Origin: Bullera alba
Lineage: Eukaryota; Basidiomycota; Tremellomycetes; Tremellales; Bulleraceae
Reading direction: 5' to 3'
Length of the DNA: 64,000 nt
Assembly: GCA_001600095.1 (NCBI GenBank)
Contig: BCIX01000001.1
Location: forward strand, 5,977,198 to 6,041,197
Numbering within the stretch: the stretch's first letter is position 1; each line of letters opens with the position of its first letter. Shown one piece after another: positions 23,798-28,640 of the stretch. Below the pieces are notes generated by a model. The model worked only from the letters and a program-made list of their open reading frames with translations, was not told the DNA's origin and ran no database searches. The position numbers and the translations under genes were made by a program.

Positions 23798-24454
23798 ATG
23801 TCCGATTATGACAAGTCTTTCTCAGCAGGCGGTATGACTGGAGGCGGTATAGACCCGGCTGTTACAGACGCCTTCGCTAACAATTTTACATTTCTCGATA
23901 TCGATGAGGGTGATAGAGAGGAAGAGGAGTTCGAGGGGGAAGAGAACAGTGGCATAAACGATTCCCCTCAGAGCAACGACAGTACCGGCCCCGCCGACAT
24001 AAGCCCATTCTACAGCGAGGTCTACCACGGTGCTAGCGACGTCGACTACACAAGCTCCGACAACGATACTCAATCCGACGAGCCGCTCTCTGGCCACACA
24101 AAGCCTCCCAGCAAGAAGAAATCGTGGTTAAAGCCCTTCTATCATATTAGACGCAGGCGTGACAAGGGTAAAACTAGTGTGCCAGGCAGACATGACAAGG
24201 GTAGGACTAGTGTGCCAGATACGGCACCTTCGCAGGAAGCACTTCACCCCCAGTCAAAGCAACGTCGACCAACTACATACAAATCGAAAGCAGAGAGCAT
24301 CCTCGGAACCGAACTCACTGATGAGGAGCTTTATGCCAGCGACCTGGTGAGGACCAAGTACAGTTCGCTGAAACCGGCTAAGAGGCCCGAGGGCGACACT
24401 TCGTGGCTGGACAGCGGAACCAGCAGAGCTGATGACCACACCGGCATGCCATGA
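23798..24454 (+). CDS. Orphan disordered protein A of a tandem KAxxxLG family
   Basis: Single-exon frame of 218 codons with no recognised domain. It is predicted disordered: an acidic first half (GDREEEEFEGEEN), then a basic patch KKKSWLKPFYHIRRRR, a tandem 33-base duplication (24158-24190 and 24191-24223) giving two copies of DKGxTSVP, then YKSKAESILGTELTDEELYA. The KAESILG core matches the short motif repeated in three downstream genes, so I place it as a diverged member of that array. The TGA at 24452-24454 is followed in frame by 20 more sense codons (QVVEDAQGKAATEDDG) before TAG at 24515-24517. No signal peptide or membrane segment. Function unknown. Confidence 0.65.
   Translation: MSDYDKSFSAGGMTGGGIDPAVTDAFANNFTFLDIDEGDREEEEFEGEENSGINDSPQSNDSTGPADISPFYSEVYHGASDVDYTSSDNDTQSDEPLSGHTKPPSKKKSWLKPFYHIRRRRDKGKTSVPGRHDKGRTSVPDTAPSQEALHPQSKQRRPTTYKSKAESILGTELTDEELYASDLVRTKYSSLKPAKRPEGDTSWLDSGTSRADDHTGMP
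24158..24223 (+). repeat. 33-bp tandem duplication inside protein A
   Basis: Two adjacent 33-base units, 24158-24190 and 24191-24223, differ at only a few positions. They keep the reading frame and duplicate 11 codons centred on DKGxTSVP. Confidence 0.9.
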
Positions 24455-24517
24455 TCACAGGTTGTCGAAGACGCTCAGGGTAAAGCCGCTACCGAGGATG
24501 ATGGTCCGGAGAAGTAG

Positions 24518-25478
24518 TACTGTTCTGCGGCCTGCCATATAACGGCACCTAGCAGTCTCCTTCAACAGGAGTGTGTCTATGAGAGAACGATCGGGAAATC
24601 AGTAGGGTTAGGACTCGACGGGACATGCACAGTATGGCTGAACACCGAATTACTGACGGCAAACTATGGTAGTTCGTTCTACAGTAGTCTCAGAATTGGG
24701 CTACACTCAGCGAAGTTGTGGGTTGGCCTGATCCATTCGGCTGTGCGAGACCCATAAGAGACGGACAATGAGGGGGCGACGCGACACGGGATGCAGTGAT
24801 GCGCAGTATCACTGATTATAGCCATGCGAAACTTAGATCTCACTAAGCGCTGTGCTGGGTATTACTCAATGCCCTTGGCCAGTCCTGATCGCCCATCGCT
24901 CACTTGTGCAGTGTGCTCACATGGAACATTCTGCCAAAGCCGAGGTGTCGGAGCTGAGAAACGATGGCTCCATTGGATGGCATTGAAGTGACCGATGGCG
25001 ACGGGCAAGATGAGCAACCAGCGGGTCTCCTTTCACTGCATGGAACCTCCTGGATGTCCACCGATGACGATGATCACCAGGAATTGCAAATCGGCACCTT
25101 TTGCAACCATTTCGAATGTCATCTCCATTGAACTCGACTGGCCGGTCGGTTGCCTGTCAGAGGATCGCCGACACGCACGCTGGTTTCAGCGTCGAGATGT
25201 TCCGCTAAAGTGGTTCGTATCCTTTGAACAGGGACACGGCCTACGAAACGGAATGTCAGCTCTCGCCCCACGGTCTCCTCACGCAGTGTCCCCTCCATTG
25301 ACTTAGCCCTCATGAGACACCTCCGGCAGCGGACAGGATACGAGAACTCCCGAGCCCTGCTGTTGCCCCGGAGGCTATAAAGACTGGCCACTCAGCCTCG
25401 ATCCACTTCCCTCATCACTCATACAGCACAACTCACTACTCCCACCAGTCAAGACCATACCCAACCAGAACTTTGACA
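24518..25478. other. Intergenic within the orphan array
   Basis: About 960 bases with no gene seen. From about 24930 it is recognisably similar to the sequence upstream of the next array gene (26410 onward), for example ATTCTGCCAAAGC against ATTCTGGCAAAAGC and GAAGTGACCGATGGCGA against CAAGTGACCGACGGCGA. The promoter of array gene B is therefore part of a segmental duplication. Confidence 0.6.
25376..25389 (+). promoter_or_regulatory. TATA box of array gene B
   Basis: TATAAAGACTGGCC lies 103 bases before the ATG of gene B. The tandem copy upstream of gene C has TATATAAACT at 26861, 95 bases before its ATG. A closely similar TATAAGGACTGGTC lies at 31848 upstream of the secreted protein gene. 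Strong TATA boxes are uncommon ahead of the housekeeping genes in this window, which suggests regulated expression. Confidence 0.6.
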
Positions 25479-25970
25479 ATGCCAGCCTCCGAAGCCGCAA
25501 CCAAGATGTCGGACCCCTCCAACGTATCCGAACCCCAAGGCTGTGAGTTATTCTCTAGGTGTGATATAGCAAGCTAAGCTTACATTTCCTCCTCAGATAA
25601 CAGTGTTGCGGAGAAGAAAAACTTGGAGAACCGCGACAAAGCACAAACTGTGCTAAGCTACACCGATGCCAGTACCGGTAAGTCCCAGAAGTCAAGGTGG
25701 GGTTTTACCGGCAAGCCGTGGAAGAAGTGGGCCGGGAAGTCTGAGGCTTCCGCGGAAACAGCGCCCACGAACGAAGTCGATGCAGGCGCCTACGGCTATG
25801 TCAGTGACGAAGAGCCGGACGGTCAGGAGGGTGACGAGGAGGCCGGGTCGGAGGAAGAGATTCCCAAGTCCAAAGGGAGCATGACCAAGGCCGGCAAGCT
25901 ACTCGGCGAAGACCCCTCGAGACTGGCCCGACTGGCGTCTGAAAATCGTACTAACCAGTCGGGCCGATAG
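25479..25970 (+). CDS. Orphan disordered protein B of the KAxxxLG family
   Basis: Two exons, 25479-25542 and 25597-25970, give 145 residues. The N-terminus (ASEAATKMSDPSNVSE) is almost the same as in gene C, and the intron sits at the identical position and phase. Two copies of the family motif are present, NRDKAQTVLS near the start and MTKAGKLLGEDPS near the end. Between them are a Trp/Lys stretch (GKPWKKWAGK), then GAYGYVSDEEPDG and an acidic run. No signal peptide, transmembrane segment or catalytic motif. The clear splice signals, conserved intron and conserved coding positions relative to C argue that it is a real gene. Function unknown; composition suggests a soluble disordered, possibly stress-related or scaffold-type protein, which is inference only. 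Confidence 0.75.
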
Positions 25971-26860
25971 GCTCGAGGACCACCACAATGTCGCTCCCAG
26001 GCATTGCGGGACGAGGAGTCAGAATGCGTTTCGTAGTCAGCACAGGGGTACTATCATATGGTAGCACCGTACTCGAGGATGAATGATGATAGTTGACGAC
26101 GAGTCAGGGTGCCTTCAGCCATCAGAGTCGCCAGTTGATGTCCATTGGTCACACTTCCTCAGACTCACAAACGATTACTTGACAATTCTCACGAGGCGCT
26201 GACGACCTCTAGACGGGCAAGGTATGAAACTCTGAGCATCGACTGCAGATATACGGGATGGTCGCCCGTGTGACTGTATAAGACCAATTGTGGCTCTGAA
26301 TGCTGAAATGATGCGGACCATTGTTCAGTCTATGTCAGTCGGTGAAGCGTGTAGTGTGAGCGCAAGTGAACTCTGAGCTTTTTCCACTGACCTCGACAAC
26401 ATTCGCTCGAGGAATATTCTGGCAAAAGCGATTCGACTGTGCTGGATCAAGTGACCGACGGCGAGAGACGACGCTAGCGCGCATCTCCTTTGAGTCGACT
26501 CGACTGAGTCGTCGATGATGACGATAACGATCAGACCTTTGACATGATCACCCTTCGATGCGAGTTTCGGATGTGATTTCAAATAAAACCTCCTTTGATC
26601 TCCACTAGCAGGTATGCTGCCCCTGAAAGAAACAGGTGCACATATGATGATGTCAGTCGTTGGTGGTCTTCGCGGGAAATGATTGATCCTTTCGAGTTTC
26701 GAGTGAAACACAGCTGTGAACGTCGTCGGCCAGGCTCTCCTCTGACCATCTTCATGCTAAGCATTTGATCCTTTGGCGCTGGCCAGCTGAGACTGACTCG
26801 TTTTGAATGTGTAGAAGGATGAGAAGATCAAAACCCGAGCCGCTTCGGACAGACGGAGGG

Positions 26861-26868
26861 TATATAAA
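26861..26868 (+). promoter_or_regulatory. TATA box of array gene C
   Basis: TATATAAA, 95 bases before the gene C start and in the same relative place as the TATA box of its duplicate, gene B. Confidence 0.6.
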
Positions 26869-26955
26869 CTGAGGGGTAAGCGTCGATACTCTTTCACCAA
26901 GTCTCATTCGATCCGACCAACCAGTGAAGATCATATCCAACCCAAGCCATTGACA

Positions 26956-27409
26956 ATGTCTGCCTCCGAAGCCGCGACCCAAATGTCGGACCCCTTCAAC
27001 GAGTCCAAAAGTGAAGACTGTGAGTTCTCTTTCAGGTCTAGTGTGTCATACTGAACTTCCCCCCCAAGACGGGAGTGATGTAGAAGAGGTAACTGCCAAG
27101 ACCGATAATCGTGACAAGGCCTACAGAGTGCTGGGCCGCACTGATCGCACTCAATACGAGCAGTCAGAGCAGCCGACCGACATCCCACCAGCTACGGAGG
27201 GATACACCGAGATCAAAGTGGACTCGACTGCCTACGGTTACGAAAGTGACGAAGGAGGCGAGCCTATCAGCAGGACGAAGACAGGTGATTTGAGCAAGGC
27301 CAGCAAGGTACTCGGCGAAGACGTCTCAAGCTTGACGACTGACAACACCAAGCAGTCGAGTACTGGTCCCACCAAGAAGAGTGGATGGTCTAAATGGTCT
27401 CGAAAATAG
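26956..27409 (+). CDS. Orphan disordered protein C of the KAxxxLG family
   Basis: Two exons, 26956-27019 and 27069-27409, give 134 residues. Exon 1 is 64 bases, exactly as in gene B. The motif occurs twice, NRDKAYRVLGRTDR and LSKASKVLGEDVSS, separated by TAYGYESDEGGEP, which matches GAYGYVSDEEPDG of B. The C-terminus KKSGWSKWSRK echoes the Trp/Lys patch of B but sits at the other end, so segments appear to have been rearranged rather than simply substituted. The protein is hydrophilic with no membrane or secretion signals. I do not recognise it from any characterised family. Confidence 0.75.
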
Positions 27410-28064
27410 ACCTCGATGTCGTTCGCAGACATTACGAATTAGTCGAGGAGTCGAAATACGTTTTGTAGTCGGCAGTGGCAGTGGGGGACTATCGTGTGGT
27501 TATACCGTACCCGAGGAAGGATGAATGATGATAGTCAGGGACAAGTTAGGGTATCTCATCCTTAAGCGCCGCCAACTAGCGCCAACTGCTGTCCCATAAT
27601 CTCACTTTCCCATACTCACAAGAGATCACTTGAAGAGCTGATCCTGATGAGGAATCGGTGACTTCACAGTGGACAAGGCCTAAATTTCTGAGCAATGACT
27701 GCAGATGAATAAGTTGGCTGTCTGTGTGACTGTTGACAAGCACTGCGTGCCGGTGAGTGCCATAAGCTGTTACGACCTGACACCGAGAAAGCCCGGAGGT
27801 CGGTGTCGGGGGGAAGAAGGGTCGTGGACGGACTCGAGTGATACCAGAAGGGTATCACTACTGGACTGGAGACTTGGTCTAGAAGAGACTCAGTCGCGAA
27901 AGGGCAAGTCGACTTAGATACAGCTCGGAAGGATCAGAGGGCGAGCGAATGCGAGTGGGCTTTAGAAGAGTAACTTGTTGATAGATTGATCCTTGGGAGA
28001 GGATCAATCAGGATATGAACTGCTAGCTATATATACTGTACAGAGCAAACTAGATACTTAGGAA
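27410..28064. other. Intergenic within the orphan array
   Basis: The left part (to about 27730) is the duplicated 3' flank shared with gene B. The rest is AT-richer with a TATATATACTG stretch near 28030. No gene was seen. Confidence 0.5.
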
Positions 28065-28176
28065 GACTACGGTCATAGTCGACTTGGCGACTATGCTCAT
28101 AGTCGGCCCTGACTATGGCCTTAGTCGGCCCTGACTATGATCATAGTCAACCCTGACTATGAGCATAGTCGGTGGC
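28065..28176. repeat. Tandem array of palindromic 22-bp units
   Basis: Four 22-base units at 28089, 28111, 28133 and 28155, preceded by a degenerate 24-base unit at 28065. Each unit is GACTATG-NN-CATAGTC followed by a six-base spacer (GGCCCT, GGCCCT, AACCCT, GGTGGC). The 16-base core is a perfect inverted repeat in units 1, 3 and 4 and imperfect in unit 2 and in the first copy. The array ends 18 bases before the ATG of the next gene. It could be a cluster of dimeric transcription-factor sites or a set of hairpins in the 5' leader. Confidence 0.92.
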
Positions 28177-28194
28177 TTCACCAATCGGGATAAC

Positions 28195-28640
28195 ATGTCC
28201 GAGACCACCAAAGTCGAATCACCCCGCGAGTCATCTTCCATACGTGGCAGGCCACGCTGAACACGAGTGTGCAGACGACAGTAATGTCGAAGCTGAAGTA
28301 AGCGAGGAAGAGAGAGAGGAAGATACCGAGGGGGGAGGACATGGGCACAACCTCCAACGGGAGAAAGGGAAATGAGAAGGCCTACAAGTTGCTGGGGATC
28401 ACTCAGGGGACTGCATCCTCCTCCCGAGCCTCCGAGGGGAGCCAGCCTCAGCATGGAGTCGATCCTGCTCCCGGCAGCGACGCTGAGGGTGGTGATAATG
28501 ATGCTGTCGTCGACGGAGTCCAAGAGTGCACGCGGAGGACAGGTGACCGGGACAAAGCCAACAGGGTTCTTGGAATCACTCCATCACGCTTTGCAACTGG
28601 GAGCAACCAGTCGGGTCCAGGATCTCGACGAACACGTTGA
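28195..28640 (+). pseudogene. Orphan protein D of the KAxxxLG family, frame interrupted
   Basis: The fourth array member. ATG at 28195 begins MSETTKVESP. A GC-AG intron (28226-28274) would join it to an exon starting DSNVEAEVSEEE, which aligns with the second exon of gene C. That frame meets TGA at 28373-28375, while the family motifs (NEKAYKLLGITQG and DRDKANRVLGITPS) lie one frame over and run to the stop at 28640. A single extra base near 28365-28372 would explain this. The second frame also has its own ATG at 28341 (99 residues), so a shortened protein may still be made. Alternatives are a sequencing error in the AAAGGGAAA run or an intron I could not place. Confidence 0.55.

Follow-up and report, generated by a model that had tools for sequence, protein, structure and literature searches.

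Within a 64,000-nucleotide stretch of the Bullera alba genome (contig BCIX01000001.1 of assembly GCA_001600095.1, forward-strand positions 5,977,198 to 6,041,197; hereafter the window, whose own numbering is used throughout), four consecutive plus-strand genes between 23,798 and 28,640, here called A to D, encode small, disordered proteins carrying the short motif KAxx[VIL]L[GS]. Three of them, B, C and D, form a family that is real but apparently narrow, and only B is plainly intact. We hold with moderate confidence that these three genes, which encode disordered proteins, are a young, apparently lineage-restricted family born of tandem duplication and subject to birth-and-death turnover, and that the paired motifs, together with a basic tryptophan (Trp) patch in B and C, are putative docking sites. 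This docking interpretation is favoured because the motif count lies far above that of shuffled proteins, no shuffle out of 1000 equals the B-C, B-D or C-D alignments, two relatives (P0003 and P0004) were found, four segments are kept, nonsynonymous divergence (dN) is lower than synonymous divergence (dS), TATAAA elements are similarly spaced, and AlphaFold places helices on motifs.

Seven motif copies were read from the sequence, one in A and two each in B, C and D, and the original prediction had placed every one of them correctly. On the plus strand they are, each with its core beginning at KA, KSKAESILG in A (24281..24307; KSKAENILG in P0005), RDKAQTVLS (25632..25658), which ends in S and not G and reads RDKAQTVLG in P0003, and MTKAGKLLG (25881..25907; MTKASKLLG in P0003) in B, RDKAYRVLG (27110..27136) and LSKASKVLG (27290..27316) in C, and NEKAYKLLG (28371..28397; identical in P0004) and RDKANRVLG (28548..28574; RDKANKLLG in P0004) in D. 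The two motifs of a pair are 59 to 83 residues apart in B, C and D. When the four proteins were shuffled (n=20,000), a set contained 0.0023 motifs on average and never more than one, and A by itself yielded KAxx[VIL]LG in 36 of 100,000 shuffles. Because B, C and D share descent and do not count as independent, the surprise rests on the pairs within each protein. The content of disorder-promoting residues in A to D is 0.67-0.73.

Sequence comparison identifies B and C as duplicates of each other and D as a relative of the two. Local alignments scored 156 for B-C, 71 for B-D and 68 for C-D, and none of the 1000 shuffles reached any of these values. At the DNA level, B and C are 79% identical over 110 columns comprising the 5' leader, exon 1 and the donor site, and 69% identical over 224 columns 3' of the genes, with additional blocks of similarity. 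B, C and D each contain two motifs and can be aligned with one another, and B and D additionally have relatives outside this genome. Gene B (25479..25970, plus strand) encodes 145 amino acids in two exons (25479-25542 and 25597-25970) separated by an intron of the form GTGAGT..CAG (25543..25596); among the three genes, only B combines canonical splice sites with a complete frame. Gene C (26956..27409, plus strand) would encode 134 amino acids in exons 26956-27019 and 27069-27409 if a non-canonical AAG acceptor is used, its intron (27020..27068) being of the form GTGAGT..AAG. Among six acceptors tried, the frame was open only with the AAG at 27066-27068, and use of the first TAG led to an immediate stop. 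C depends on the AAG site because its exon-2 frame has no ATG of its own and the other acceptors tried are closed.

B and C share exon 1, and the features that they had been said to have in common were confirmed, namely the position of the first intron, with the AAG acceptor in C, and the sequence AYGYxSDE, the latter as AYGYVSDE in B (25788..25811; identical in P0003) and AYGYESDE in C (27230..27253). A Trp/basic patch is present in both proteins at different places, in B as the Trp/Lys patch KSRWGFTGKPWKKWAGKS (25689..25742). A TATAAA, possibly a promoter element, is found at a similar distance upstream of both genes (25376..25381, 103 nt 5' of the B ATG; 26863..26868, 93 nt 5' of the C ATG). 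Over 116 aligned codons, the Nei-Gojobori method (NG86) gave dN = 0.47 and dS = 1.24, and differences at codon positions 1, 2 and 3 numbered 44, 39 and 59. Gaps in the alignment and the high dS make dN < dS no more than a hint of selection.

All protein searches required shared 5-residue words. A profile built from B, C and D retrieved four proteins among 1305 candidates at expectation values (E) of up to 10, which were C itself, P0002, P0003 and P0004; P0003 and P0004 are homologs of the kind on which the original prediction had made its case for the family depend. P0002 is B exon 2 with one change (99% identity). P0003, with 116 residues, is 78% identical to B exon 2 and has kept both motifs, the Trp/Lys patch and AYGYVSDE, with AYGYVSDEEPDG unchanged. 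P0004, with 203 residues, is 77% identical to the open reading frame (ORF) of D and holds both motifs in one frame. These levels of identity suggest that P0002 and P0005 come from the species of the window, and that one or two near species are the source of P0003 and P0004. Beyond P0001-P0005, three protein searches found no homolog. Queried with C, the genome yielded nothing but the two C exons and a pair of weak matches (E 0.16 and 0.92); because B and D next door were missed, this search does not rule out additional copies. Pfam contained no family matching A, C or D, gave one match below the cut-off for B (E 0.19), and returned nothing convincing for the six rows of the alignment termed A2 (best E 0.028). 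The expectation of a repeat-based, fast-evolving family without a described relative was supported for B, C and D.

Conservation between B and P0003 is concentrated in four segments, the two motifs, the Trp patch and AYGYVSDEEPDG, in which 51 of 53 residues are kept compared to 40 of 63 elsewhere (p ~1e-5, with the segments picked after the alignment had been seen). Of these segments, the Trp patch shows the strongest conservation, with 18 of 18 residues identical against 73 of 98 in the remainder (p = 0.012), and in this comparison it is better supported as a constrained element than the motifs by themselves. This raises the question whether the Trp patch is the working part, making contact with a membrane or nucleic acid in small hydrophilic stress or surface-binding proteins, with the KAxxLG helices being incidental. 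The high content of disorder-promoting residues would agree with such a function, and the TATAAA upstream of B and C would suit induced genes. However, the motif-bearing ORF of D and P0004 are devoid of Trp, yet both have kept both motifs, and no feature is shared more clearly among B, C, D and the two relatives than the motif pair. We consider this alternative unlikely, although it deserves to be taken seriously.

The docking interpretation includes the loss of family members, and gene D is probably one such case. It had been drawn as one gene spanning 28195..28640 on the plus strand, but this reading did not hold: there is no read-through, and homology to P0004 is split over two frames, 28169-28375 and 28302-28640, with the motifs residing only in the ORF 28302-28640 (ATG at 28341). 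Residues 112-203 of P0004 match the D locus in a stop-free frame, whereas residues 42-134 match in another reading that contains four stops. A genome search with P0004 yielded a single further place (E 1.88) besides the D locus. Immediately in front of D lies a piece of a dispersed repeat (27768..28184, plus strand), which starts with TGTTACGACC, includes a palindrome array at 28065-28171 and has its 3' end 10 nt upstream of the candidate D ATG at 28195. Residues of P0004 that follow the repeat boundary agree with the window (IGITCPRPPK) and those before it disagree, for which the simplest account would be that an insertion in the lineage of the window replaced the promoter of D. Given a frame that is broken in two in comparison with P0004 and a repeat that ends 10 nt 5' of the ATG, D is probably dead in this genome and no longer functional.

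A copy of the repeat at another locus (C3:398178-398594, within the 2-kb stretch L096) is 95% identical over 417 nt in reverse orientation, and 25 match rows were obtained in the genome, counting the repeat itself and cross-matches of the palindrome. The repeat is thus a dispersed one, and it is probably a piece of a retroelement, putatively a terminal repeat. The palindrome GACTATGNNCATAGTC occurs at 11 genome places compared to 3 for the reversed pattern, each place being listed on both strands, and in its perfect form it is confined to three clusters, in the window at 27768-28184, in L096 on C3 and at C2:1661815-1662349. Within the element, such clusters may form a hairpin or serve as an array of protein-binding sites.

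An alternative is that the whole cluster consists of young, weakly constrained or non-functional genes, that is, decaying duplicates whose products do little. Besides the split frame of D and the repeat in front of it, the need of C for an AAG acceptor, the shorter length of A compared with P0005 and the failure to find wide homologs in the three protein searches all point in this direction. However, B is intact, P0003 has an open frame with all four segments, P0004 has an open frame with both motifs, and dN is smaller than dS between B and C. We regard general decay as rather improbable.

If the motifs of B, C and D are docking sites, the small proteins, which we presume to be expressed, would serve as docking or tethering proteins with two sites each, or as competitors. 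Each motif would fold into a short helix on binding a groove of a putative partner, and two weak sites would give avidity. The basic Trp patch might hold the protein at a membrane or at nucleic acid, while the acidic SDE stretch might be phosphorylated and, together with the patch, set where or when docking occurs. Turnover of the family would have left B intact, whereas C relies on an uncommon splice site and D has a split frame and a repeat in place of its promoter. The original prediction of a short amphipathic helix received weak support. AlphaFold models of B exon 2 with five relatives (mean predicted local distance difference test, pLDDT, 53) contained helices at residues 3-20, 95-102 and 106-115, the first two of which lie on motif 1 and motif 2, respectively. 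In the model of P0004 with two pieces of D (mean pLDDT 47), the sole helix, at residues 181-186, falls within motif 2 (K182 to G188), and no helix was predicted for motif 1. Helices were thus predicted, at low confidence, for three of the four modelled motifs, and the motif is possibly a short amphipathic helix.

Throughout the genome, KAxx[VILM][LF]G with Lys encoded by AAA or AAG was found at 125 places (65 + 60) compared to 83 (48 + 35) for the DNA-reversed pattern, 89 for an amino-acid-reversed control and 101 for the DNA reversal of that control. When Arg codons were allowed too, the numbers were 239 and 196. Given this mild excess over the controls, the motif was rejected as a genome-wide family marker. 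For 89 of these 125 places the flanking sequence was inspected, and KAxxxLG at several of them is presumably the C-terminal tail of extended short-chain dehydrogenases. Pfam was applied to six such pieces resembling sugar-epimerase-type dehydrogenases by eye (of eight pieces tested in all), and only L049 gave matches (3Beta_HSD and Epimerase), the five shorter ones giving none. A motif that had arisen by chance, or as a generic helical stretch of Lys/Ala-rich disordered proteins, and was shared by B, C and D through duplication only would fit the small genomic excess and the dehydrogenase-like tails, but it is improbable in view of the two copies within each of B, C and D, which are kept in both relatives and almost never arise in shuffles.

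A narrower pattern, KAx[KR][VILM][LF]G[VILM], had 11 places against 3 in controls, which is not a clean test because the additional letters were chosen after the matches had been seen. These comprise one in D, two in tails that look dehydrogenase-like by eye (L085 and L092), three with F for L, and five in long, low-complexity-looking frames of 228 to 738 codons (L007, L022, L025, L047 and L082). Upstream of the L025 frame and on the same strand lies a DUF1765 domain (E 8e-28), which we infer to belong to the same gene; L082 had a RhoGEF match below the Pfam cut-off (E 0.002), and L007, L022 and L047 had no Pfam match. From position 1233 on, L025 contains KAEKLLGLGFG followed by a Trp/Lys stretch (TSWLKKSFGKQKKRK) recalling the patches of A and C, and its alignments were reached by 7 of 1000 shuffles with C, 65 with A and 64 with B. 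KAx[KR][VIL]LG[VIL] might on this basis be an undescribed fungal docking motif common to the orphan family and to large disordered regulators of the same genome, so that the small proteins would compete with RhoGEF-like, DUF1765 and three low-complexity proteins for one scaffold groove. This is a long shot, resting on a pattern refined after the fact; if true, the occurrence of the motif in larger regulators as well would offer a testable handle on a partner.

Several results weigh against docking by B, C and D. In both AlphaFold models, pLDDT was below 70 at every residue. The helical hydrophobic moment reached the 93rd-94th percentile of the respective protein for three of the seven motif copies and the 40th-59th percentile for the other four, so that strong amphipathicity is limited to three copies. 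The motifs taken alone were not significantly better kept than the remainder, either between B and P0003 (21 of 23 versus 70 of 93, p = 0.15) or between D and P0004 (26 of 29 versus 45 of 63, p = 0.06). For C, the protein searches revealed no relatives beyond its own near-identical records, and a single-sequence search returned only C itself (one match among 4 candidates). Genome-wide, the motif is just mildly more frequent than its controls. The motif (V/I)-(I/L)-(D/S)-(L/A)-Y, which mediates binding to Spa2, had no match in A, B, C or D. The suggestion of an undescribed system was not supported, as the partner is hypothetical, A aligns with the others at chance level, D looks dead and the motif is only mildly more frequent in the genome than its controls. 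If the motif is indeed a docking site, the cluster would be a young one built from short repeated motifs that are kept in relatives while other parts drift, and it would at the same time be losing a member beside a mobile-element insertion. If it is not, B, C and D would represent an ordinary orphan gene cluster in turnover.

That all four genes form one family was confirmed for B, C and D and not for A, for which alignments were at chance level. Gene A is a single-exon ORF (23798..24454, plus strand) encoding an acidic, disordered protein of 218 amino acids with one motif. Of 1000 shuffles, 606 equalled or exceeded the local alignment score of A-B (37), 279 that of A-C (45) and 770 that of A-D (30), and a profile comparison of A with B/C/D by hhalign aligned 17 columns around the motif with a probability of 0.2%. 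A is a neighbouring orphan gene, and its motif may be a coincidence or a trace of very ancient common descent. Its only match among 477 candidates was P0005, which is 98% identical and has a C-terminus that is 21 residues longer. The frame of A stops at 24454, and 20 of the 21 extra residues match the next codons of the window (24452-24514). Read from this comparison, the difference is a length polymorphism between near-identical alleles. P0005 has SWFKPFN in place of the SWLKPFY of the Trp patch in A, and KAENILG in place of KAESILG. A also holds two head-to-tail 33-nt repeats that are 88% alike (24153-24218). The genome search with A yielded A itself and one place at E 1.27.

The array had been placed between YSA1 and CMC1, and the identification of YSA1 was supported by a NUDIX match (E 4e-12), whereas two short pieces of the presumed CMC1 matched no Pfam family. 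Rfam at gathering scores gave no match in the window. The genome has 19.4 Mb in 7 contigs, one of them of 8.0 Mb, a large-chromosome karyotype that resembles Kwoniella. Chromosome numbers described for Kwoniella include 14, 11, 8, 5 and 3, and 7 is not among these (PMC11185503).

A search of the PDB with two 28-residue motif peptides gave no match for either. The motif spellings were not found in open-licence literature text, a weak negative since short sequences are rarely printed, and titles and abstract starts of open-licence literature on related topics contained nothing on the motif. Con-6 conidiation proteins are small proteins of fungi in which a short motif of helical appearance is duplicated. 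Neither the Pfam matches listed for A to D (E up to 1) nor those listed for the six A2 rows (E up to 10) include Con-6. The tails of extended short-chain dehydrogenases share the letters KAxx[VIL]LG but are part of a folded enzyme, and A to D lack such a domain. Among the described cases considered, the nearest is that of Msb3, Msb4, Ste7 and Mkk1, in which a short motif within a disordered region binds Spa2 SHD1 (PMC12831199). There, the motif is predicted to be helical in a hydrophobic groove of the cortical scaffold, for which several proteins compete (PMC12831199). B, C and D would resemble these ligands in presenting a short motif on disordered fungal proteins, by analogy only; unlike the Spa2 SHD1 ligands described there, B, C and D are small orphan proteins in which the motif comes as a pair. 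The members of lineage-restricted orphan gene families are likewise small, disordered, without a Pfam family and of narrow known distribution. Compared to such families in general, B, C and D appear distinguished by their tandem arrangement and by a repeated motif that has been kept in relatives elsewhere.

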